Positions 3,817 through 32,834 of a stretch of DNA of 33,657 bases are shown here, one piece after another. The position numbers and the translations under genes were made by a program. How positions within the stretch are numbered: the stretch's first letter is position 1; each line of letters opens with the position of its first letter. The notes under the pieces were generated by a model. That model ran no database searches. It saw nothing but the letters and a program-made list of their open reading frames with translations, and was not told the origin of the DNA. The DNA comes from a virus. The stretch is from positions 1-33,657 of the IMG/VR virus record IMGVR_UViG_3300035698_009525; one strand, written 5' to 3'.

Positions 3817-5025
3817 TTAAATACCTTTTCGCTCTGGTAGGTTTATGACACTCCAGTCTTCCGCAAATATCTGCGGGAATTTTCCGTAATAATCATCTGT
3901 CACTGCTGCCCCTTGCTGTAGAATCTCTCCAGTTTTCCCGTTTATCCACTGTGGGGTTGTAACGTCTAGAGAATGGTCTTCCGAATTGAATATACCATAT
4001 TCTCCTTCCTGTATCTGTGCATAGCCGAAAGCATTTCTTTCCAAATCTCTACATAAATATCCTCTATAAGCCAATTTATAGTCAAGCGCACTTTGAGGCA
4101 AGCGTTCAATTGCAACATGTACTTGATACTTAATCTTTTCAGTACCAGTATCTGAAACCTCTATTTTTTGTTCTGCTGATATTTCATCTATAACAGCAAA
4201 ACCAGCAGGAAAGTGTTTGTTTAGAACCCAAAGCCCGGCTTTATTTGTCGTACCCTCCAGGCCTACACCTATAGCCGAATCAAATTCTCTGACTTCATAA
4301 GAAAAATGTTCAATAATATGTTTCTCTGTTGTTTCTGCAATAATCTTTTCGCCTGTATAAGGATGTATTACATCAAGTGTAGGGAAACCTTTTTTATCAC
4401 CATCTTGATAAGCTTTCAAAAACGGCACAGTCACATATTTACTGGTCGACCATGTCTTAACGTTCTTGCCGCCGCCAAGGCGAAAGAAATCACTTTCAAG
4501 GGCATCCTCGGCGTCCTCTTCATCTTGAGCAGCCCTTTCAGCCCTTCTAGTTTCAAGTTCACTTTCAACTGCCGAATCTGCCAAAGAATCTTTTATGTCC
4601 GCAAGTTCAAGCTCATTCTTTAAAGCGGCTATTTTAGCATCATCATCCTTAGGATTAGCATCCCGATATTCCTGACTTGTTGCTATCTTCTTTTTGCTCA
4701 AAGCAATATCAGCTTCATTCGGATTATCGACAGAATATGAAACACCTACCTCCCATGTAGCTCTGTCCTCTTCGCCAGAAATCATCGCAAAACTAGCATC
4801 ACCGGCATAGAGTTCACAATACCAATTGTTTTTAGATAAACCTACAATTGGGTGCACTGTACCTGGTTCAGGAACATTCGCCCAAGCTGTAGATATAACT
4901 ATCTGCTCAGGTCCGCAATCATCAACGTAAAATCTGAATACTCTTGACAACGTAAGCTTGTGCCCCGAACGGCCCGCCGATCCTGTATATTCAGCTATAT
5001 ATTCAACTAGTGGTGTTTTACTCAT
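3817..5025 (-). CDS. Putative distal tail / tail-tip protein with internal coiled coil
   Basis: Product of 402 aa directly downstream of the tape-measure gene, the usual place for distal tail or hub proteins. The N-terminal about 115 residues and the C-terminal about 200 look like beta-rich globular domains. Between them, at residues 120-185, is a highly charged Ala/Glu/Asp/Lys/Arg-rich helix that should form a coiled coil, probably for trimerisation. The start has a strong AAGGAG site. No peptidase, glycosidase or lipase motif is visible. The assignment rests on gene order and architecture; a receptor-binding or baseplate protein is the main alternative. Confidence 0.6.
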   Translation of the reverse strand: MSKTPLVEYIAEYTGSAGRSGHKLTLSRVFRFYVDDCGPEQIVISTAWANVPEPGTVHPIVGLSKNNWYCELYAGDASFAMISGEEDRATWEVGVSYSVDNPNEADIALSKKKIATSQEYRDANPKDDDAKIAALKNELELADIKDSLADSAVESELETRRAERAAQDEEDAEDALESDFFRLGGGKNVKTWSTSKYVTVPFLKAYQDGDKKGFPTLDVIHPYTGEKIIAETTEKHIIEHFSYEVREFDSAIGVGLEGTTNKAGLWVLNKHFPAGFAVIDEISAEQKIEVSDTGTEKIKYQVHVAIERLPQSALDYKLAYRGYLCRDLERNAFGYAQIQEGEYGIFNSEDHSLDVTTPQWINGKTGEILQQGAAVTDDYYGKFPQIFAEDWSVINLPERKGI

Positions 5026-17960: not shown

Positions 17961-18047
17961 TGGCGGAAAGTTAAGGAATCGAACCTTCACGCAATTATAC
18001 GTGGCTACGGTATTCAACACCGATTGTTCCCTTGAACACAACTTTCC
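17961..18047 (-). tRNA. tRNA-Ser(UGA)
   Basis: 87-base cloverleaf on the minus strand. The seven-pair acceptor GGAAAGT / ACTTTCC is perfect, the discriminator is G, and CCA is encoded at 17963-17961. The long variable arm has CACG / CGTG pairing, which with the G discriminator indicates serine. The anticodon loop is GTTGAAT, giving UGA. The T arm is AAGG-TTCGATT-CCTT with the outermost pair mismatched. The D arm is short (TGTT / AACA with a six-base loop) and one anticodon-stem pair is mismatched, so it may be a weakened or phage-adapted tRNA. It ends 18 bases before the terS ATG and is probably cut from the late transcript. Confidence 0.85.
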
Positions 18048-20652: not shown

Positions 20653-21042
20653 ATGACAGAAGAAAAAGAAAAAGATAACAGTCCAATTTTAACAGAATTG
20701 ATTATGGAACGTGTTAGTTCTTTATCATTGTTTGAACAGGCTAACTTATTGGCTTGGATTGAAAGACCACCTAAAAAGGTTTATTCACCAGAAGAAAAGA
20801 TAGTTCGTTATGAAGAGTTAAAAAGACTTAGAAAAGTTGAAAGAGATAAAAGAAACGCATCAGTCCAGCAAGAGTTGATTGATACTTATGACACGATAAG
20901 AGAAAACGACCCAATTGTGACTATTGCAAAACTAGCAGATCATCTTGGAGTAAGTGATGCCAGCATCCGCACACGCCTAAAGAAGAATCGTGATTTCATC
21001 AATGAAAAGGGTGTAGTAGCAAAGAGGGTGCCATCATGCTAA
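20653..21042 (+). CDS. Early regulator with winged-helix domain duplicated in the primase
   Basis: Product of 129 aa with a GGAG site. Residues 1-70 are charged and helical. Residues 72-129 form a helix-turn-helix with Asp-Pro-Ile-Val-Thr-Ile-Ala-Lys-Leu-Ala-Asp-His-Leu-Gly-Val-Ser-Asp-Ala, nearly the same as the C-terminal 58 residues of the primase-helicase at 27544-29751. The two proteins probably recognise the same DNA, for example the origin. It may be an early transcription or replication regulator. Its 3' end overlaps the next gene by seven bases. Confidence 0.7.
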   Translation: MTEEKEKDNSPILTELIMERVSSLSLFEQANLLAWIERPPKKVYSPEEKIVRYEELKRLRKVERDKRNASVQQELIDTYDTIRENDPIVTIAKLADHLGVSDASIRTRLKKNRDFINEKGVVAKRVPSC

Positions 21043-21266
21043 GTCTCAATTTTTTAGAGTGCCAGCACAGAGCCAGACAGTTTGATGGGGGATTACTTCC
21101 TAAAGACTGTCTGGACATGATGAGCATGGTTTATGGTTCAGATGATCTTAGATCACTGAACAAGGCTAAGTTATGCGTAAAGGTTCAGATGCTTTTGCGT
21201 GCAGGAAATTCAGCCACAGATATTAAAGCTGTAAAATCAGCAGTAACAGAATGGAGAAAGTCATGA
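21036..21266 (+). CDS. Small early protein, unknown
   Basis: Product of 76 aa, overlapping the preceding regulator by 7 bases and the following 24-aa peptide by 3. Mostly helical, with two Cys (9 and 25) and a final Thr-Glu-Trp-Arg-Lys-Ser. No motif recognised. Likely real because it is locked between coupled genes in a compact operon. Confidence 0.5.
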   Translation: MLSLNFLECQHRARQFDGGLLPKDCLDMMSMVYGSDDLRSLNKAKLCVKVQMLLRAGNSATDIKAVKSAVTEWRKS

Positions 21267-22908: not shown

Positions 22909-22947
22909 GGGGCGTGCACTCTTGCCGACCCATAAAGGAAACAAACA
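22909..22947 (+). promoter_or_regulatory. Hairpin-RBS cassette 1 (before SMC-like ATPase)
   Basis: Stem GGG-CG-(T)-GCA / TGC-CG-(A)-CCC with loop CTCT, then ATAAAGGAAACAAA and the ATG. An overlapping upstream stem ACGCC / GGCGT is an alternative fold. One of five related cassettes. Confidence 0.7.
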
Positions 22948-24282
22948 ATGACAGTGAAAATAAATAGCTTACACATAGAGAATGTGAAAAAAGTTAAAGC
23001 AGTAGTACTTCAACCCGGGGCAAACGGCTTGACAGTTATAGGTGGCAACAATGGAGAAGGTAAGACAAGTATTCTTGATTCCATTGCTTGGGGATTAGGT
23101 GGCAATAGAAAAGCCCCAACCAATGCCCGGCGAGATGGATCAATGACACCGCCACTACTCAACATCACACTAAGCAACGGGATAAAAGTTGAACGCTCTG
23201 GTAAAAATTCAGCTCTCAAAGTAACAGATCCAGCTGGTGCAAAAGCTGGTCAAGCACTACTTGATAGTTTTATATCAGAACTAGCTTTAGACTTGCCAAA
23301 ATTCCTAAATCAGAATGCAGACAAGGCAAAAACTTTGTTGCAGATTATTGGTGTTGGTGATGAATTGGTTAGACTAGACCAGGAAGAAAAATCACTATTC
23401 CAGAAAAGACATTCTATTGGACAAATTGCAGACAGCAAAAAGAAACATGCAGCAGAAATGCAAGAGTTTCCTGATGTTCCAGAGCAACCAATTACAGCAA
23501 TGGAACTGATTAAGGAACAGCAATCTATATTAGCTAAGAATGGCGAGAATCAACGTAAGAGAAACAATGTTAATGAATTAATAAGAGAGCATGATGTTTC
23601 TGTTGATAGGGTTATAGAATTAGAATCTAAAATGACTGAACTAATTAAACAACTTGATACTGCAAAAGATAAAGTTAGTCATCTGTCCAAGGACATTGAG
23701 ACAGCAGAAAAAACAGCTGAGCAATTGCAAGACGAATCAACTACAGAAATAGAAAACAAGCTCAACGACATAGAAACAACAAACTCACAAATCAGAGCTA
23801 ACATAGATAAATCTAGAGCACTAGACGAAGCTAACGAATACAAACAACAATATGACGGCTACAGCAATGAACTTGAGGATGTTCGCAAGAAACGCCTAGA
23901 ACTGCTTTCAACAGCAAATCTTCCACTACCTGAACTAACTGTCAAGGATAGCACTTTACTCTACAAAGATAAAGCATGGGATTGTATGTCAGGAACTGAT
24001 CAATTAAAGGTTGCAGTTGCTATTGTTCGTAGACTTAACCCGAATTGTGGTTTTGTTCTGATTGATAAATTAGAGCAGATGGACCAAAAGACATTAACAG
24101 AGTTTGGCGAATGGCTAGAAACCGAAAAACTACAAGCAATCTGTACACGAGTTTCTACTGGTGAAGAATGTTCAATCATCATTGAAGACGGACTTCCACA
24201 AGGACAGTCATATTTAGACGTAACAAACACCCCTGAACCATCACCAACAGATGATGACCCTTGGGAACAATTTAAAAAATAA
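22948..24282 (+). CDS. SMC/RecF-like ATPase of phage recombination module
   Basis: Product of 444 aa. Walker A Gly-Gly-Asn-Asn-Gly-Glu-Gly-Lys-Thr-Ser at 32-41; a long coiled-coil middle (about 170-320); then the ABC signature-like Met-Ser-Gly-Thr-Asp-Gln near 347 and Walker B Phe-Val-Leu-Ile-Asp-Lys near 368-373. Lys follows the Walker B Asp where SMC proteins have Glu, and a Glu occurs two residues later. No SbcD/Mre11 nuclease partner is nearby. It is followed by Sak4-like, DUF669 and helicase genes, so a role in end processing or loading of the annealase is likely. Confidence 0.8.
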   Translation: MTVKINSLHIENVKKVKAVVLQPGANGLTVIGGNNGEGKTSILDSIAWGLGGNRKAPTNARRDGSMTPPLLNITLSNGIKVERSGKNSALKVTDPAGAKAGQALLDSFISELALDLPKFLNQNADKAKTLLQIIGVGDELVRLDQEEKSLFQKRHSIGQIADSKKKHAAEMQEFPDVPEQPITAMELIKEQQSILAKNGENQRKRNNVNELIREHDVSVDRVIELESKMTELIKQLDTAKDKVSHLSKDIETAEKTAEQLQDESTTEIENKLNDIETTNSQIRANIDKSRALDEANEYKQQYDGYSNELEDVRKKRLELLSTANLPLPELTVKDSTLLYKDKAWDCMSGTDQLKVAVAIVRRLNPNCGFVLIDKLEQMDQKTLTEFGEWLETEKLQAICTRVSTGEECSIIIEDGLPQGQSYLDVTNTPEPSPTDDDPWEQFKK

Positions 24283-24289
24283 AATGTAA

Positions 24290-24324
24290 GGGCGGCATTC
24301 TTGCCGCCCCATAAAGGAAACAAA
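24290..24324 (+). promoter_or_regulatory. Hairpin-RBS cassette 2 (before Sak4-like gene)
   Basis: Perfect eight-pair stem GGGCGGCA / TGCCGCCC with loop TTCT (24290-24309), then C and ATAAAGGAAACAAA before ATG 24325. Preceded by ATGTAA, as in copy 5. Confidence 0.75.
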
Positions 24325-25398
24325 ATGCAAGTAATAAGCGGAAAACAAGTCAAAGCACAAAGAGTAATTGTATATGGTCCAGAAGGAATTGGAAAGTCAA
24401 CAATGGGAAGTAAATTCCCTAATCCAATCTTTATTGACACAGAAGGATCAACAGCCGAACTAAATGTTAACAGATTGCAAACCCCCAACAGCTGGACAAT
24501 GTTAAAACAGCAAATACAATGGGCATCTAATCAGGGGTATCAAACAATTGTTATAGATACTATTGACTGGGCTGAAAGGCTCTGTATCATGCATATATGT
24601 GCATCACGTGGCATAGAATCACTTGGTGGAGGCAAAGACTACGGCAAGAGCTATAATCTACTAGCTCAAGAGTGGGGAGGACTTCTCAACTACCTAACAG
24701 ATATCACATCAAAAGGTATAAATGTTGTTTTGTTAGCACACGCTCAAATGAAAAGAACTGATTTGCCAAATGAAATGGATTCTTATGATAGATGGGAACT
24801 CAAACTAGAAAAGAAGACATCTGCATTATCTAAAGAATGGGCGGATATGGTTCTATTTGTCAACTACAAAACAATTGTAATTGAGAATGAAGACGGCAAG
24901 CCCAAAGCACAAGGTGGAAAAAGAATGATGTACACCTCTCATCACCCATGCTGGGATGCTAAAAACAGAGTTGGAATGCCTGAAGAATGTACTCTTGATT
25001 ATGCAAACATTGAAAAGTATATTCCAACAATTGCCACAGCTCAACCACAACAACAGCCACAAACACAGTCAACGCCTAAAACTCAAGACACTAAAAAAAA
25101 GGAGGTTAAACCACCGGTACAAGCTAAACAACTACCGCATCCCCAAAACAAACCAGTTGTAGAGTATGACGAAGAGCGTGCAGCAATTCAAGCTGAATGC
25201 ATTAACAACCAACAACTAGCCGACCTTATGGCTTTGGACGGTATAACAGAAATTCAAATAAGAAAAGTAGTATCAGGAAAGGGAATATATCCATTTGAGA
25301 TGGATATTAACGATTATGAGGATAAGTTTATCAACGGAATGTTAGTCGCTAACTGGGGCAAAGTAACAGCAGAAATCAAACAAAAAGGAATAGTATAA
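24325..25398 (+). CDS. Sak4-like RecA-fold single-strand annealing ATPase
   Basis: Product of 357 aa from ATG 24325, chosen for the AAAGGA site; a longer reading from a TTG would run through the cassette hairpin. Walker A Gly-Pro-Glu-Gly-Ile-Gly-Lys-Ser-Thr at 18-26, Phe-Ile-Asp-Thr-Glu-Gly at 36-41, and Walker B Thr-Ile-Val-Ile-Asp-Thr at 74-79. After the RecA-like core there is a Gln/Pro/Thr/Lys-rich linker (about 240-285) and a C-terminal helical part. Sak4 proteins are RecA-fold recombinases of phages that work with an SSB, and the following DUF669 gene fits. Start codon of the next gene overlaps its stop (TAATG). Confidence 0.82.
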   Translation: MQVISGKQVKAQRVIVYGPEGIGKSTMGSKFPNPIFIDTEGSTAELNVNRLQTPNSWTMLKQQIQWASNQGYQTIVIDTIDWAERLCIMHICASRGIESLGGGKDYGKSYNLLAQEWGGLLNYLTDITSKGINVVLLAHAQMKRTDLPNEMDSYDRWELKLEKKTSALSKEWADMVLFVNYKTIVIENEDGKPKAQGGKRMMYTSHHPCWDAKNRVGMPEECTLDYANIEKYIPTIATAQPQQQPQTQSTPKTQDTKKKEVKPPVQAKQLPHPQNKPVVEYDEERAAIQAECINNQQLADLMALDGITEIQIRKVVSGKGIYPFEMDINDYEDKFINGMLVANWGKVTAEIKQKGIV

Positions 25399-25928
25399 TG
25401 TCAGACTGGGATGATTACACAACGGGTACAGATCCACAAGAAGAAAATCAACAACAAACAACAGGAACAGATGAATCACTAGACTGGAACATGGATCTAA
25501 CAGAAGAAGATGCAACTCCGCCAGAAACTAAAGTGCTGCCAAAAGGTAGATATGCTTATATGATCACTCACTACAAGAGAGGCTTTCATGAAGCAAGTGC
25601 AAAGCTTCCTAAATGTCCACAAGCAATTGTTTCATTCAGAATCAGTCATGATGGGGAAAACGTAGAAGTTAACAAGTTCTTTTTTGTACACCCAAAAATG
25701 AAATGGCAAATTGCTCAACTCTGGACTTCCTGCGGACTACGCAAAAAAGGCGAAACTGTAAAAGCAGACTGGAATCAACTATCAGGCTCAACGGGAATGT
25801 GTGATATTGATATCAGAACATACAAAAAGAAAGATGGAACAGAATCTCAGTCTAACGACCTGACACTACTTCCACCTGACACACCGCAGACTACATCAAC
25901 AGATGATAAAGACGGATTGCCATTCTGA
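25398..25928 (+). CDS. DUF669-like, SSB-type protein
   Basis: Product of 176 aa. An acidic N-terminus (1-40) leads into a beta-rich domain starting Leu-Pro-Lys-Gly-Arg-Tyr-Ala-Tyr-Met-Ile, as in the DUF669 family. The end Asp-Lys-Asp-Gly-Leu-Pro-Phe is like the acidic DDxLPF tip of SSB proteins that recruits partner enzymes. It lies between Sak4 and the helicase. Probably covers single-stranded DNA for annealing and replication. Stop and next start overlap (TGATG). Confidence 0.8.
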   Translation: MSDWDDYTTGTDPQEENQQQTTGTDESLDWNMDLTEEDATPPETKVLPKGRYAYMITHYKRGFHEASAKLPKCPQAIVSFRISHDGENVEVNKFFFVHPKMKWQIAQLWTSCGLRKKGETVKADWNQLSGSTGMCDIDIRTYKKKDGTESQSNDLTLLPPDTPQTTSTDDKDGLPF

Positions 25929-27508
25929 TGCAACTTCGCCAATATCAACAAGAAGCCCATGACTCAATCATAGAGTCATGGGACCAATTCGACAAGGCTT
26001 TACTAGTCTTGCCGACTGGTACAGGTAAAACAATTGTATTCTGTAAAGTTTCAGAAACAATGGTAAGCCGAGGATCTAAAGTTCTAATACTTGCTCACCG
26101 TGGAGAATTACTTGAACAAGCAAGAGACAAGATGCAAAAATCAACTGGTTTAGGATGTTCACTGGAAAAAGCAGAATCATCTTGCCTTGATGATTGGTTC
26201 AGGATAACAGTTGGATCAGTTCAAACACTTATGAATCCATCAAGGTTGGCACAATTCAAAAGAGATCACTTTGATGTGATTATAGTAGACGAAGCTCATC
26301 ACGCACTTGCAGACAGTTACCAAAGAATATTTGACTACTTCATTAAAGCTAAAGTTCTTGGTGTAACAGCTACACCAGACCGTGGTGACATGAGAGAGCT
26401 TGGTAACTTCTTTGAATCACTAGCTTATGAGTACACACTACCGCAAGCAATTAGAGATGGTTTTCTTGTAAAAATGAAAGCATTAACAGTACCGCTGGAA
26501 ATAGACTTGACAGCTGTAGCTCAACAATCTGGTGACTTCAAAGCAAGCGATGTTGCAACAGCACTTGACCCATACTTACATCAAATAGTAGATGAGATTA
26601 TCAAGACTTGTTCAAACAGAAAAACAGTTGTATTTCTGCCACTAATAGCAACATCAGAAAAGATGCAATCAATGCTACTTGCAAAAGGTGTTTCATGTGC
26701 AGAAATAAACGGAAACTCAAAAGATAGAGCAGAAATACTTGAAGACTTTCACAATGACAAATACAAAGTCCTATGTAATTCAATGCTGCTAACAGAGGGA
26801 TGGGATGAGCCTAGTGTTGATTGCATCATTTGCCTAAGACCTACTAAGGTTAGAAGTCTCTACTGTCAAATGATTGGACGTGGTACACGCCTATATCCTG
26901 GCAAAGAGAATCTTCTGATACTTGACTTTCTTTGGCATACAGATAGGCATGAACTATGTAGACCTGCACACCTGATTGCAGATGATAGCTTTGTATCAAA
27001 CAAGATAACAGAGATACTAGCAGAATCAGGAACAGAACTTGACCTTGAAGATGTTGCAGAACAAGCAGCCGGAGATTGCATTGCTGACCGTGAAGAAGCG
27101 CTAGCCAAAAAACTAGAAGAAATGAGACGTAAAAAAGCCAAACTAGTAGACCCAGTTCAATTTGAAATGAGTGTACAATCAGAAGACCTGGCACACTACG
27201 AACCATCATTCGGTTGGGAAATGGCACCACCATCAGAAGACCAAAAGAAATACTTAGAAAAGGCTGGTATCTTCCCCGGTGACATCAACAACGCAGGCAA
27301 AGCAAGCAAAATCATTGATAGGCTCAAAAAGAGAAGCGACCTAAAACTAACAACTCCAAAACAAATAAGATTCCTCGAACAAAGAGGATTTATACACGTA
27401 GGCGGTTGGAAGTTTGAAGATGCTCGCAGAATGACAAACAGAATAGCCGGGAACAGCTGGAAAATACCAGCAGGAATAAACCCAAAACAATACAATCCAA
27501 ACAAATAG
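25928..27508 (+). CDS. SF2 DEAD/DEAH-type helicase
   Basis: Product of 526 aa. Q-like motif Leu-Arg-Gln-Tyr-Gln at the start, motif I Leu-Pro-Thr-Gly-Thr-Gly-Lys-Thr, motif Ia Ala-His-Arg-Gly-Glu-Leu, motif II Asp-Glu-Ala-His-His, motif III Thr-Ala-Thr-Pro, and motif VI Gln-Met-Ile-Gly-Arg-Gly-Thr-Arg. The C-terminal part (about 440-526) has Thr-Pro-Lys-Gln-Ile-Arg-Phe-Leu and Gly-Gly-Trp-Lys-Phe, a tail common in phage replication helicases of this type. Role in replication or recombination with the neighbouring genes. Confidence 0.93.
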   Translation: MQLRQYQQEAHDSIIESWDQFDKALLVLPTGTGKTIVFCKVSETMVSRGSKVLILAHRGELLEQARDKMQKSTGLGCSLEKAESSCLDDWFRITVGSVQTLMNPSRLAQFKRDHFDVIIVDEAHHALADSYQRIFDYFIKAKVLGVTATPDRGDMRELGNFFESLAYEYTLPQAIRDGFLVKMKALTVPLEIDLTAVAQQSGDFKASDVATALDPYLHQIVDEIIKTCSNRKTVVFLPLIATSEKMQSMLLAKGVSCAEINGNSKDRAEILEDFHNDKYKVLCNSMLLTEGWDEPSVDCIICLRPTKVRSLYCQMIGRGTRLYPGKENLLILDFLWHTDRHELCRPAHLIADDSFVSNKITEILAESGTELDLEDVAEQAAGDCIADREEALAKKLEEMRRKKAKLVDPVQFEMSVQSEDLAHYEPSFGWEMAPPSEDQKKYLEKAGIFPGDINNAGKASKIIDRLKKRSDLKLTTPKQIRFLEQRGFIHVGGWKFEDARRMTNRIAGNSWKIPAGINPKQYNPNK

Positions 27509-27509
27509 G

Positions 27510-27543
27510 GGCGTGCAATCTTGCCGCCTTTTAAAGGAAACAA
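27510..27543 (+). promoter_or_regulatory. Hairpin-RBS cassette 3 (before primase-helicase)
   Basis: Stem GGCG-(T)-GCA / TGC-CGCC with loop ATCT (27510-27528), then TTTTAAAGGAAACAA before ATG 27544. It starts right after the helicase stop. Confidence 0.7.
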
Positions 27544-29751
27544 ATGTTAGACATAATACAAAACATCAACCCATCATCATGCACTTATGAAGAATGGCTC
27601 ACAGTAGGAATGGCAATATGTCACGAAGGTGGCACAGCTTCAGACTGGGAATCATGGTCAATGGGTGATACTACCAGATACAAAGTTGGCGAATGTTCCA
27701 GAAAGTGGAACAGCTTCAGATCAACAACACAACCTGTAACAGCCGGCTCACTCATCCACATAGCCAAAAACCAAGGCTGGACACCAAAACACTATGACAA
27801 TAATGAAGTGTTAGAATGGGATAACTTAACAATAGATGCAGATGACGACTACGTCTTTATTGATTCCAACTGGTTAAAGACAGAAGAACACGAACTACAA
27901 GCACCAACAAACTGGAAACCAGCAAAAGAACTACAAAAATATCTAACAACACTATTCCAACCAACTGAATACGTAGGCTACGTAATTGACACATGGGAAA
28001 AAGAAGGATCATCACTACCAACAAAAGGAATATCAACACGCACAGCAGGAGAACTAACAAAACAACTCCAACAATGCAAAAACGATATAGGAGCGGTAAT
28101 AGGTGATCATGACGAACAAGTAGGGGCGTGGATACGCTTCAATCCCCTAGACGGTAAAGGAGTAACAGACAACAACGTAACCGCCTTTAGATACGCCCTA
28201 GTCGAATCTGATACAGTAGAAACAAACCAACAACTCGCAATAATCAAAGAACTAGAATTACCTTGTGCTGCAATAGTTCATTCAGGAAACAAATCAATCC
28301 ACGCAATTGTAAAAATAGAAGCCGATACATTTGAAGACTACAGAAAACGAGTAGATTTTTTATATAAAATTTGCAAAAAAAACGGCTTAGAAATCGACAG
28401 ACAAAACCGCAACCCCTCAAGACTATCAAGAATGCCAGGAATAACACGCAAAGGACAAAAACAATATCTCATTGACACAAACATAGGAAAGAAAAGATGG
28501 GAAGAATGGGAAGAATGGATAGAAGAATTGAACGATGATCTGCCAGACTTCCAAAACTTTGCTACAGCTTTAAAGAACATGCCAGAACTCGACCCCATTC
28601 TTATTGACGGCCTATTAAGAATTGGACACAAAATGCTTATGTCTGGACCATCAAAAGCTGGAAAAACATTTGACATGCTAGAATTAGCAGTTGACATTGC
28701 TGATGGTTTATTGTGGCACGAATTCCAATGTATAAAAGGACCTGTATTATATTGTAATTTAGAAATATCAGGTCCATCTTGTCTTTGGAGAGCATCATCA
28801 ATTGCAGATTGTGTAGGTTTAAAAAATCCTAAAAATATAGACTTTTGGAACCTAAGAGGAAACCAAATCAAAATGGACAAACTCGCACCTAAACTTATCA
28901 GAAGAGCAAAAGAAAAAGGATACGTAGCCATATTCATTGACCCACTTTACAAAGTAATTACCGGTGACGAAAACAGTGCAGAACAAATGGGCAAGTTCTT
29001 CAACATCTTTGACCATATATGTGCAGAACTTAAATGCTCAATGATCTACTGCCATCATCATAGTAAAGGTGATCAAGGCGGAAAGAAATCAATGGACAGA
29101 GCCAGTGGATCAGGAGTGTTTGGACGTGACCCAGATGCGGTACTTGACTACATAGAACTAAACATCGACAAAGACAGAAGAAAATCAATACTAAACGCCA
29201 GAGAATGTCAAGCCTTTACAGACTTCTTTGATAAAAATGCAAAAGGCTGGGATGAAGAAATCCCTATAGACGATCAACTCATATCAGATAAACTATTCAA
29301 ATGGGGGCAACCCAAATTTGACAAACAACTAAGAACAATCAGACTAGACCTAATCAATCGAACCTCCTACATATCAGCATGGAGACTAAGTGGCAACGTC
29401 CGAGAGTTCCCACCCTTTAAAGATAGAAAATTCTACTTCGATTATCCAATTCATACTGCCGATAAAGATGGCTTTTTAGATGATGCAAAAGCAGCAGGAG
29501 AAGAACCACCATGGAAAACACAACAAACAAGCAAAGCCAACGCACGCCAAGAAAGAAAAAAAGAACAAGAACAAGAAATAGAAACAACATATGAACTCAT
29601 CAAACAAAGCGACCCAATTGTAACCATCGCCAAATTAGCAGAACACCTCGGGGTTAGTGATGCAACAATAAGAACAAGAATTAAAAAGAATAACAAATAC
29701 ATAAATGAAAAAGGCGTAATAGCCAAAAAAGAAAGCAAAGCAAATGATTAA
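27544..29751 (+). CDS. Primase-helicase with C-terminal winged-helix domain
   Basis: Product of 735 aa. Residues 1-85 fit a PriCT-2-type domain (Tyr-Glu-Glu-Trp-Leu, Trp-Glu-Ser-Trp-Ser). Residues about 150-310 look like an archaeo-eukaryotic primase core (Val-Glu-Ser-Asp near 220; Val-His-Ser-Gly-Asn-Lys-Ser-Ile-His at about 245-253). Residues 360-580 are a RepA-type ATPase with Walker A Gly-Pro-Ser-Lys-Ala-Gly-Lys-Thr (368-375), Walker B Ala-Ile-Phe-Ile-Asp-Pro (about 462-467) and Tyr-Cys-His-His-His. The last 58 residues repeat the winged-helix domain of the 129-aa early regulator. It should start phage DNA synthesis. Third-base usage is strongly A/C biased. Confidence 0.87.
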   Translation: MLDIIQNINPSSCTYEEWLTVGMAICHEGGTASDWESWSMGDTTRYKVGECSRKWNSFRSTTQPVTAGSLIHIAKNQGWTPKHYDNNEVLEWDNLTIDADDDYVFIDSNWLKTEEHELQAPTNWKPAKELQKYLTTLFQPTEYVGYVIDTWEKEGSSLPTKGISTRTAGELTKQLQQCKNDIGAVIGDHDEQVGAWIRFNPLDGKGVTDNNVTAFRYALVESDTVETNQQLAIIKELELPCAAIVHSGNKSIHAIVKIEADTFEDYRKRVDFLYKICKKNGLEIDRQNRNPSRLSRMPGITRKGQKQYLIDTNIGKKRWEEWEEWIEELNDDLPDFQNFATALKNMPELDPILIDGLLRIGHKMLMSGPSKAGKTFDMLELAVDIADGLLWHEFQCIKGPVLYCNLEISGPSCLWRASSIADCVGLKNPKNIDFWNLRGNQIKMDKLAPKLIRRAKEKGYVAIFIDPLYKVITGDENSAEQMGKFFNIFDHICAELKCSMIYCHHHSKGDQGGKKSMDRASGSGVFGRDPDAVLDYIELNIDKDRRKSILNARECQAFTDFFDKNAKGWDEEIPIDDQLISDKLFKWGQPKFDKQLRTIRLDLINRTSYISAWRLSGNVREFPPFKDRKFYFDYPIHTADKDGFLDDAKAAGEEPPWKTQQTSKANARQERKKEQEQEIETTYELIKQSDPIVTIAKLAEHLGVSDATIRTRIKKNNKYINEKGVIAKKESKAND

Positions 29752-30142
29752 ATTCTTCATACCACTAAAAAAGATACCATCTAAAACAGCCCAACAAAAA
29801 GGAGTAAGAGTATGCCAAGGAAAACCAATATTCTACACCAAACCAGAAGTCAAAGCAGTAGAAAAACTATTCAGACACCACATGGCAAAACACAGACCAC
29901 TAAACCCACTAACAGGACCTATTCAACTAATTGTGAAATGGTGCTATATTCCAACAGGCAAACACCTACCAGGCGAATGGAAAGACACAAAGCCAGACAC
30001 AGACAACCTACTAAAACTATTCAAAGACAGCCTAGAAAAAGAAAACTTCTTCAACAACGACTCACAAGTAGCATCAGAAATCAACCAAAAATTCTACAAC
30101 GACATCTGTGGAGTATTTGTACAACTAGAAAAACTCACGTAA
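29744..30142 (+). CDS. rusA: RusA-like Holliday junction resolvase
   Basis: Product of 132 aa overlapping the primase-helicase by eight bases. The RusA motif Lys-Pro-Asp-Thr-Asp-Asn-Leu-Leu-Lys at 84-91 holds Asp85, Asp87 and Lys91, and Asp106 in Asn-Asn-Asp-Ser-Gln-Val is the third acidic residue. The first Asp of the usual Asp-Asp pair is Asn here, but the catalytic one is kept. It would resolve branched DNA before packaging. Confidence 0.88.
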   Translation: MIKFFIPLKKIPSKTAQQKGVRVCQGKPIFYTKPEVKAVEKLFRHHMAKHRPLNPLTGPIQLIVKWCYIPTGKHLPGEWKDTKPDTDNLLKLFKDSLEKENFFNNDSQVASEINQKFYNDICGVFVQLEKLT

Positions 30143-30179
30143 GGGCGACACTCATGTCGACCCATAAAGGAAACAAACA
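30143..30179 (+). promoter_or_regulatory. Hairpin-RBS cassette 4 (before excisionase-like gene)
   Basis: Stem GGG-CGACA / TGTCG-(A)-CCC with loop CTCA (30143-30163), then ATAAAGGAAACAAACA and the ATG. It starts immediately after the rusA stop TAA. Confidence 0.75.
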
Positions 30180-30584
30180 ATGACAGCAACCGAACTACTA
30201 ACAGACATCAGTAAAAAACTAAGCTCATTAACCCAACTTGAAAAAGTAAACAACCAAATATGGGCAAGTGCAAAAGTAATCACACACAAAACAGGACTGC
30301 ACCGCACGCAACTAGAAAAACTCTGGGCTTGTGGATCAATCCGCAAAACAACAGTAATGCCAAACAACCCAACCGCATGCATACGCTACAGCCTAAGCGA
30401 CCTACAAGAACTCCTAGAAAAACAAGCACTCAACCCAGAGCACGCAAACAAACTAGAAGAACTAACAGAGCCCGTACAGGATGCAGTATTGCCACCCAAA
30501 ATCAAAACAACAAAATGCCCAATATGCGACACCCAAAACACAACCACAGCCAAAATGTGCATAGGCTGCGGAAACAAAATGTAA
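30180..30584 (+). CDS. Excisionase-like DNA-binding protein with zinc ribbon
   Basis: Product of 134 aa. Residues about 25-80 resemble the MerR/excisionase-type helix-turn-helix (Val-Ile-Thr-His-Lys-Thr-Gly-Leu-His-Arg, Ile-Arg-Tyr-Ser-Leu-Ser-Asp-Leu-Gln-Glu-Leu-Leu). The C-terminal 22 residues are a zinc ribbon with Cys113, Cys116, Cys127 and Cys130. The gene is encoded on the same strand as the integrase, a little upstream, so it is the best candidate for the directionality factor and for the protein that binds sites shared by attP and late leaders (inference). Confidence 0.65.
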   Translation: MTATELLTDISKKLSSLTQLEKVNNQIWASAKVITHKTGLHRTQLEKLWACGSIRKTTVMPNNPTACIRYSLSDLQELLEKQALNPEHANKLEELTEPVQDAVLPPKIKTTKCPICDTQNTTTAKMCIGCGNKM

Positions 30585-30623
30585 GGGTTGCATTCTTGCA
30601 ACCCTCTTAAAAAGGAAAACAAA
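30584..30623 (+). promoter_or_regulatory. Hairpin-RBS cassette 5 (before membrane protein)
   Basis: Perfect nine-pair stem AGGGTTGCA / TGCAACCCT with loop TTCT (30584-30605), then CTTAAAAAGGAAAACAAA and the ATG. Relative to copy 2, two base pairs differ with both partners changed. Confidence 0.78.
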
Positions 30624-30806
30624 ATGAAAGTAAATAAAAACTACATAATTGGTGGATTAATAATTTCAATACCTCTCGATATAATGTTTATATTTTTATT
30701 ATTCAACGACATAGAATCACTTTTATTTATTGTTTTCACTGTATCAATAGTATTATTTTGTACAGTGAAAGGATTAAATTTTATATATAAGGAAATGGAT
30801 AAATAA
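30624..30806 (+). CDS. Small two-pass membrane protein
   Basis: Product of 60 aa from ATG 30624, which follows the cassette AAAGGAAAAC. Two hydrophobic helices (about 8-27 and 31-50) are joined by Asp-Ile-Glu-Ser, with a Lys-rich start and end. Its base composition is T-richer than its A/C-rich neighbours, which suggests a later acquisition. Could be a superinfection-exclusion protein. Its last base is the first of the next start codon. Confidence 0.6.
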   Translation: MKVNKNYIIGGLIISIPLDIMFIFLLFNDIESLLFIVFTVSIVLFCTVKGLNFIYKEMDK

Positions 30807-32580: not shown

Positions 32581-32834
32581 TTACACTAGCCCACACCGCC
32601 CCAATTGTCTAATTTTTGTCTAATTTTAGACCCCCTAAAAACAGCTAACAATTTGACAATCAAAGACTTACAATGGGGGAGGGGGAGGGATTTGAACCCC
32701 GAGATTGCTTTTTTATACGGGCAACAATTTGAGCGTAAAGCTTTGATTACAAAGCACTTGTCTAATAGTTGTCGTAAAGGCTAAAATCACAGATTACACT
32801 AGAATACGGTGGTTTTGTCTAATTTTTGTCTAAT
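32581..32834 (+). other. attP: tRNA 3'-end-like core with duplicated arm sites
   Basis: The core at about 32673-32700 reads on the minus strand as a T arm and acceptor 3' side (GGGG-TTCAAAT-CCCT, then C/T-rich bases and CCA); the 5' two thirds of a tRNA are absent, as expected for an attP. Arm sites TTGTCTAAT lie at 32605, 32616, 32758, 32815 and 32826, the two pairs at exact 11-bp spacing. TTACACTAG precedes each pair (32581 and 32794). So a module of TTACACTAG plus two TTGTCTAAT is present in direct orientation on each side of the core. Strong evidence for a non-integrated phage form. Confidence 0.85.

Follow-up and report, generated by a model that had tools for sequence, protein, structure and literature searches.

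What are the five short hairpins that lie between replication genes of the viral genome IMGVR_UViG_3300035698_009525, and why does each of them stand just ahead of a gene start? The DNA analysed here is the complete virus record of 33,657 bp (the window). A preliminary description of this sequence presented the hairpins as cassettes that join a structure-selected RNA stem to a ribosome-binding site (RBS) before early genes. We propose instead, with a probability of roughly 0.77, that they are copies of one tagged palindromic repeat of the repetitive extragenic palindromic (REP) type, amplified in the phage lineage and shared with bacterial chromosomes, the closest being those of Kiritimatiellota. 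In the repeat unit, a GGGCGNCA/TGNCGCCC stem that carries a tetraloop of the NTCT type is combined with a GTAA-like tetranucleotide.

Structural genes of the window occupy the minus strand, and the replication module occupies the plus strand. All five hairpins are in the replication module, at the positions and with the four-base loops given in the preliminary description; each lies between replication genes, ahead of a gene start, and is bracketed by an upstream stop codon and a downstream Shine-Dalgarno site. The hairpins, with their tags and tails, are as follows.

22909..22931, plus strand: hairpin copy 1, GGGGCGTGCA-CTCT-TGCCGACCC, with a bulged T, a G/A mismatch and no recognisable tag (28.8 bits)
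22934..22942, plus strand: Shine-Dalgarno tail AAAGGAAAC of copy 1; ATG at 22948, SbcC/ATPase-like gene (phrog_1499)
24286..24289, plus strand: tetranucleotide GTAA at the foot of copy 2
24290..24309, plus strand: hairpin copy 2, GGGCGGCA-TTCT-TGCCGCCC, a perfect 8-bp stem (42.8 bits)
24313..24321, plus strand: Shine-Dalgarno tail AAAGGAAAC of copy 2; ATG at 24325, gene of a Sak4-like annealing protein (phrog_124)
27505..27508, plus strand: tetranucleotide ATAG of copy 3, whose TAG serves as stop codon for the helicase gene 25928-27508
27508..27529, plus strand: hairpin copy 3, GGGGCGTGCA-ATCT-TGCCGCC, with a bulged T (30.7 bits)
27533..27541, plus strand: Shine-Dalgarno tail AAAGGAAAC of copy 3; ATG at 27544, DNA primase gene (phrog_2597)
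30139..30142, plus strand: tetranucleotide GTAA of copy 4, whose TAA serves as stop codon for the RusA-like gene 29744-30142
30143..30163, plus strand: hairpin copy 4, GGGCGACA-CTCA-TGTCGACCC, with a bulged A (34.2 bits)
30166..30174, plus strand: Shine-Dalgarno tail AAAGGAAAC of copy 4; ATG at 30180, gene without a PHROG match
30581..30584, plus strand: tetranucleotide GTAA of copy 5, whose TAA is the stop codon of the gene 30180-30584
30585..30604, plus strand: hairpin copy 5, GGGTTGCA-TTCT-TGCAACCC, a perfect stem, two pairs of which are changed in both arms (36.6 bits)
30609..30620, plus strand: diverged Shine-Dalgarno tail of copy 5, AAAAAGGAAAAC region; ATG at 30624, small open reading frame

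The hairpins start 0-15 nt past the upstream stop codon (the distance from stop to stem is about 15, 7, 0, 0 and 0 nt in copies 1-5), and the ATG follows 15-19 nt past the hairpin, a nearly constant spacing. The tag is GTAA in three copies, ATAG in one and not recognisable in one; in three copies it supplies the upstream stop codon itself (TAG at 27508, TAA at 30142 and 30584). The common sequence said to follow the hairpins is indeed exact in four copies; the fifth reads AAAAAGGAAAAC. Each of the five non-overlapping gaps between 22.9 and 30.6 kb carries a hairpin, and in the window the hairpins occur only before early genes; three earlier non-overlapped gaps (before 20653, 21334 and 22610) have none.

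Scanning the window for A-NTC[T/A]-T loops with at least seven pairs gave five matches (four of the hairpins and a palindrome at 25956), compared with a mean of 0.005 in 200 dinucleotide shuffles. A covariance model, built partly from the five window copies themselves, recovered exactly the five hairpins (E 3e-8 to 6.5e-5), with the next match at E 0.28; no Rfam family matched the window above its gathering score. The palindrome at 25956-25982 was rejected as a family member, as it sits inside the helicase coding sequence. It lies close to the gene's start and pairs almost perfectly over 10 bp (CCCATGACTC...GAGTCATGGG); the related contig L009 retains it with altered bases (3841-3867).

Folding of the five copies is uneven. 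Stems are perfect only in the copies at 24290 and 30584; the copies at 22909, 27510 and 30143 are bulged or mismatched. RNA folding z-scores of copies 1-5 are -0.5, -3.5, -2.0, -4.0 and -4.3; the copy at 22909 is weak, folding no better than shuffles.

Paired changes in the stems had been taken to show selection for structure. The changes are real: in a set of 16 copies, of which five come from the window and the others from related phages, 92% of cells pair, both sides are changed in three pairs and covariation scores 0.226 versus 0.073 for shuffles (0.260 versus 0.075 with chromosomal copies added). Given this pairing and a covariation above shuffles, stem pairing is maintained or copied. 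Selection for RNA structure does not follow from the paired changes alone, because REP palindromes, whose hairpins act as single-stranded DNA, normally have complementary stem variants (PMC3733652), and because arm-to-arm correction or copying between repeats yields the same pattern. From the changes one can thus tell neither whether the structured molecule is RNA or single-stranded DNA nor whether selection or copying from arm to arm is at work. Intergenic phage hairpins with paired stem changes need not be RNA regulators, a caution that extends beyond this locus.

To find relatives of the hairpin, viral contigs were scanned for the stem-loop alone, with no protein information used. The first scan retrieved contig L123, which encodes relatives of the window's structural proteins (capsid 69%); the second retrieved L336, whose terminase is 52% identical to that of the window, and L299. 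L123 has seven matches and L336 six, on one strand only in each; the two contigs are about 92% identical. This clade shares with the window the same stem, the ATTCTT loop and a 5' GTAA/GTAC/GTAG tag, which in L123 and L336 is GTAC. Comparison with related phages upholds the palindrome but not its setting: copies in L123 and L336 sit in the structural operon, between the stop codon of one gene and the start of the next, antisense to transcription (GTAC and ATTCTT are on the template strand), with a looser spacing to starts than in the window and with AAAGGAAAC absent. Since the copies in relatives are reversed, lack AAAGGAAAC and belong to the structural operon, the palindrome cannot be described as an early-gene RBS cassette for the phage group as a whole. 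The interpretation in the preliminary description is thus partly supported; its frame of early RBS cassettes is too narrow.

The pair L123 and L336 also gives a glimpse of how the repeat changes. At the homologous site before the scaffold gene, a double change between the two stems turns C-G into G-C, and one further pair is broken. L123 has a 54-nt hairpin unit (~4851-4904) behind a gene whose last base is 4850; L336 lacks the unit at this site, where the flanks are intact, and a matching flank segment was found at a different hairpin in L336. This filled/empty site points to movement or to repeat-mediated recombination. The same two contigs have differing capsid-region genes (L123 893-3219, L336 6742-8321) despite ~92% identity elsewhere, an apparent exchange of modules between hairpin-bearing junctions.

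Relatives of the window's replication module gave a different picture. The homologous module of L009 (63-71% identity for the best-matching of its proteins) has no such hairpins, and the motif was also lacking in the replication-module relatives (L003-L087) and in most terminase relatives. A search of viral contigs for the exact RBS tail CCCATAAAGGAAACAAA found it together with the hairpin only in a near-identical contig, 3300031227_000841, which covers three of the copies, all unchanged, and is therefore uninformative on constraint. Five of the few differences between this contig and the window are clustered within eight bases (21046-21053). When 22.9-30.2 kb of the window were compared with L009, extra small genes were seen in L009 at the window's hairpin junctions, e.g. 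five between helicase and primase; at overlapping gene pairs without a hairpin, neighbours are kept in L009 for two of the three. The hairpins may mark points of gene gain and loss.

Chromosomal copies place the palindrome outside phages. Among the matches listed, the pattern GGGCGNCATTCTTGNCGCCC occurs in many bacterial genomes, often directly preceded by GTAG, GGAG or GTAC. Exact-core copies number 82 in one 1.8-Mb metagenome-assembled genome (MAG) of Oscillospiraceae and 45 in a Melainabacteria MAG, mostly with the GTAG tag; a reversed control pattern had no matches in these two MAGs. In the Kiritimatiellae MAG GH19, GTAG, GTAC and GTAA tags coexist. The architecture in GH19 is that of the window: three upstream operon genes stop on the TAG of a GTAG tag, and the next gene is close behind the tagged copies (L412-L415; the flanking genes were judged cellular from their translations). 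One GH19 copy reads hairpin, then CACATTAAAGGAGAAACAAAAG, then ATG; the stretch directly behind a hairpin there, CACATTAAAGGAGAAACAAAAGATG, is close to the Shine-Dalgarno stretch CCCATAAAGGAAACAAAATG of the window. In a Verrucomicrobiales MAG, a GGAG-tagged GGGCGACATTCCTGTCGCCC adjoins a Y1 transposase gene. The transposase domain PF01797 is present in both the Kiritimatiellae and the Verrucomicrobiales MAGs, with an adjacent tagged copy only in the latter.

We infer Kiritimatiellota as the host from the repeat only, because capsid and terminase searches within the phylum to which the Kiritimatiellae MAG belongs gave only distant homologues (capsid 34%, best terminases ~38%).

Membership of the REP-type family is shown by sequence and structure. 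Copies settle in intercistronic gaps directly behind a stop codon, which the tag often provides, and in the window the copied unit includes the Shine-Dalgarno tail, so that each copy leaves a stop codon, a hairpin, a Shine-Dalgarno site and an ATG at near-fixed spacing. Spread would proceed via single-stranded DNA hairpins, mobilised by a host REP transposase (RAYT, REP-associated tyrosine transposase) or through recombination between copies. An mRNA hairpin separating or protecting neighbouring cistrons would be a by-product. The general traits of REPs are present: a palindrome of 20-40 bp with a short loop in several copies (five in the window, six to seven in relatives), an intergenic position near the 3' end of the upstream open reading frame with a tag that may give the stop, and complementary stem variants within the family (three pairs changed on both sides).

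Several observations weigh against this reading. The canonical GT[AG]G tag is absent from the window, and a Y1 transposase is encoded neither in the window nor in its phage relatives. The closest host-like genome, GH19 (G002), has a low density, 15 model matches in 5.9 Mb (E<=0.1), so the phage family is enriched locally and could have its own reason for presence. Densities per Mb are ~150 in the window, ~400 in L123 and L336 and ~2.5 in G002, a comparison biased by a model built partly on phage copies. The palindrome core is widespread, and its resemblance to Kiritimatiellota copies is thus no proof of host. The empty site in L336 can also be read as a deletion; it is a single filled/empty site, and the phages compared make up two clades.

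Which other explanations could account for the hairpins? They might be phage regulatory cassettes, RNA hairpins selected for structure that with their Shine-Dalgarno sites control translation or mRNA processing of separate early cistrons, much like the start-associated sequences (SAS) and extended SAS (ESAS) of Cluster K mycobacteriophages. The hairpin and its Shine-Dalgarno tail are copied as a unit, the hairpin fills all five gaps of 22.9-30.6 kb at a spacing of 15-19 nt to the ATG, three of the five copies fold strongly and covariation is seen; there is also a phage precedent in which an inverted repeat lies just upstream of a conserved Shine-Dalgarno-type repeat, in the non-structural half only (PMC3203893). 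We nevertheless regard this explanation as possible but rather unlikely: the palindrome occurs dispersed in bacteria that are unrelated, relatives carry it antisense in structural operons without the window's tail, the three earlier gaps and the homologous early module of L009 lack it, and copy 1 has a z-score of -0.5. Within this virus, where the hairpin and its Shine-Dalgarno tail recur as a unit at a near-constant distance from the ATG, a local role in translation or mRNA handling is possible. A hairpin in mRNA could keep the Shine-Dalgarno site unpaired, discourage coupling to the upstream cistron or shield processed ends, and such roles have been proposed for REP hairpins in mRNA (PMC3733652).

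The element could also act as DNA, as a strand-specific hairpin for phage replication, recombination or gene shuffling. Hairpins are on a single strand in each phage contig, and on a common map the early copies of the window and the structural copies of L123 and L336 share a strand, which would fit the preference of HuH/Y1 elements for lagging-strand template DNA (PMC6006769); the extra small genes of hairpin-free L009 at the hairpin junctions fit as well. With two clades only, however, agreement in absolute strand has a one-in-two chance, the primase/RusA junction differs in L009 without having a hairpin, and the hairpin has no known replication or recombination protein target, so that we consider a DNA-level element quite unlikely. 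Intrinsic terminators or attenuators are highly improbable. GC-rich stems with tetraloops might suggest them, and copies 2 and 5 get terminator-like scores when read on the minus strand; the hairpins lie inside a co-oriented operon, however, and we rejected a terminator because no U-tract follows the stems on the sense (transcribed) strand, as the preliminary description had claimed, and because the window has nine terminator-like sites versus 8.2 in shuffles.

The REP-type reading permits a further step, speculative and in our estimate unlikely: the phage lineage would carry and amplify a host REP family at tens of times its chromosomal density and, in the window, would have domesticated it with a Shine-Dalgarno tail into intercistronic start cassettes. 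If this is true, phages would spread REPs between hosts and show a route of origin for start-associated, SAS/ESAS-like phage repeats. By what means REPs spread, and whether they are of use or selfish, is still open; with its dense REP-like family, a filled/empty site between close relatives and a matching chromosomal architecture, this small phage is a compact system for measuring movement and effects on operon expression.

Other features of the window touch the repeat less directly. The 3' end of the primase gene (29606-29726) has ~73% DNA identity to part of a small early gene (20653-21042), so that the two have a terminal domain in common. On the minus strand, 17961-18047 is a gene for tRNA-Ser (TGA anticodon), and a sequence resembling a tRNA 3' end lies behind the integrase gene (32680-32710); the latter may be an attachment site.

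Among known systems, the window family can be compared with GTAG-tagged REPs and REPtrons. The GTAG REPs described by Di Nocera et al. (2013) are 20-40 bp palindromes with 6-9 bp stems, 2-4 nt loops and subfamilies with complementary stems; they supply TAG stops and lie <20 bp from the ends of upstream open reading frames (PMC3733652). REPs are mobilised by RAYT via single-stranded DNA, and the tag serves as the guide sequence (PMC3733652, PMC8266576, PMC6006769). Shared with the window are the 20-26 nt palindrome, the GC stem of 6-9 bp, the loop of 2-4 nt, the tetranucleotide at the 5' foot, the complementary stem variants, the intergenic location just past stop codons, the tag-supplied stops and the many copies per genome. 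Differences are that the window family resides in a phage that has no RAYT, that its tag is GTAA/GTAC rather than GTAG and that a Shine-Dalgarno tail is copied along. We found no report of REP families in phage genomes in the open-access literature searched, which is not proof of novelty.

In anatomy, the closest phage analogue is the SAS/ESAS system of Cluster K mycobacteriophages, described also in Cluster EF Microbacterium phages (PMC3203893, PMC7302621). There, as at the gene starts of the window, an inverted repeat lies immediately upstream of a conserved Shine-Dalgarno-like repeat; both are found where some of the non-structural phage genes start, mostly in one orientation, with presence or absence between homologues. 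The sequences are unrelated: SAS is the 13-bp GGGATAGGAGCCC and ESAS has 17-bp arms with a spacer of 4-13 bp; in the window, AAAGGAAAC is combined with an 8-bp GGGCGNCA stem. Finally, the chromosomes of M. smegmatis and M. tuberculosis lacked SAS consensus copies (PMC3203893, PMC7302621), whereas the palindrome of the window is found in bacterial chromosomes and related phages carry antisense copies of it among structural genes.

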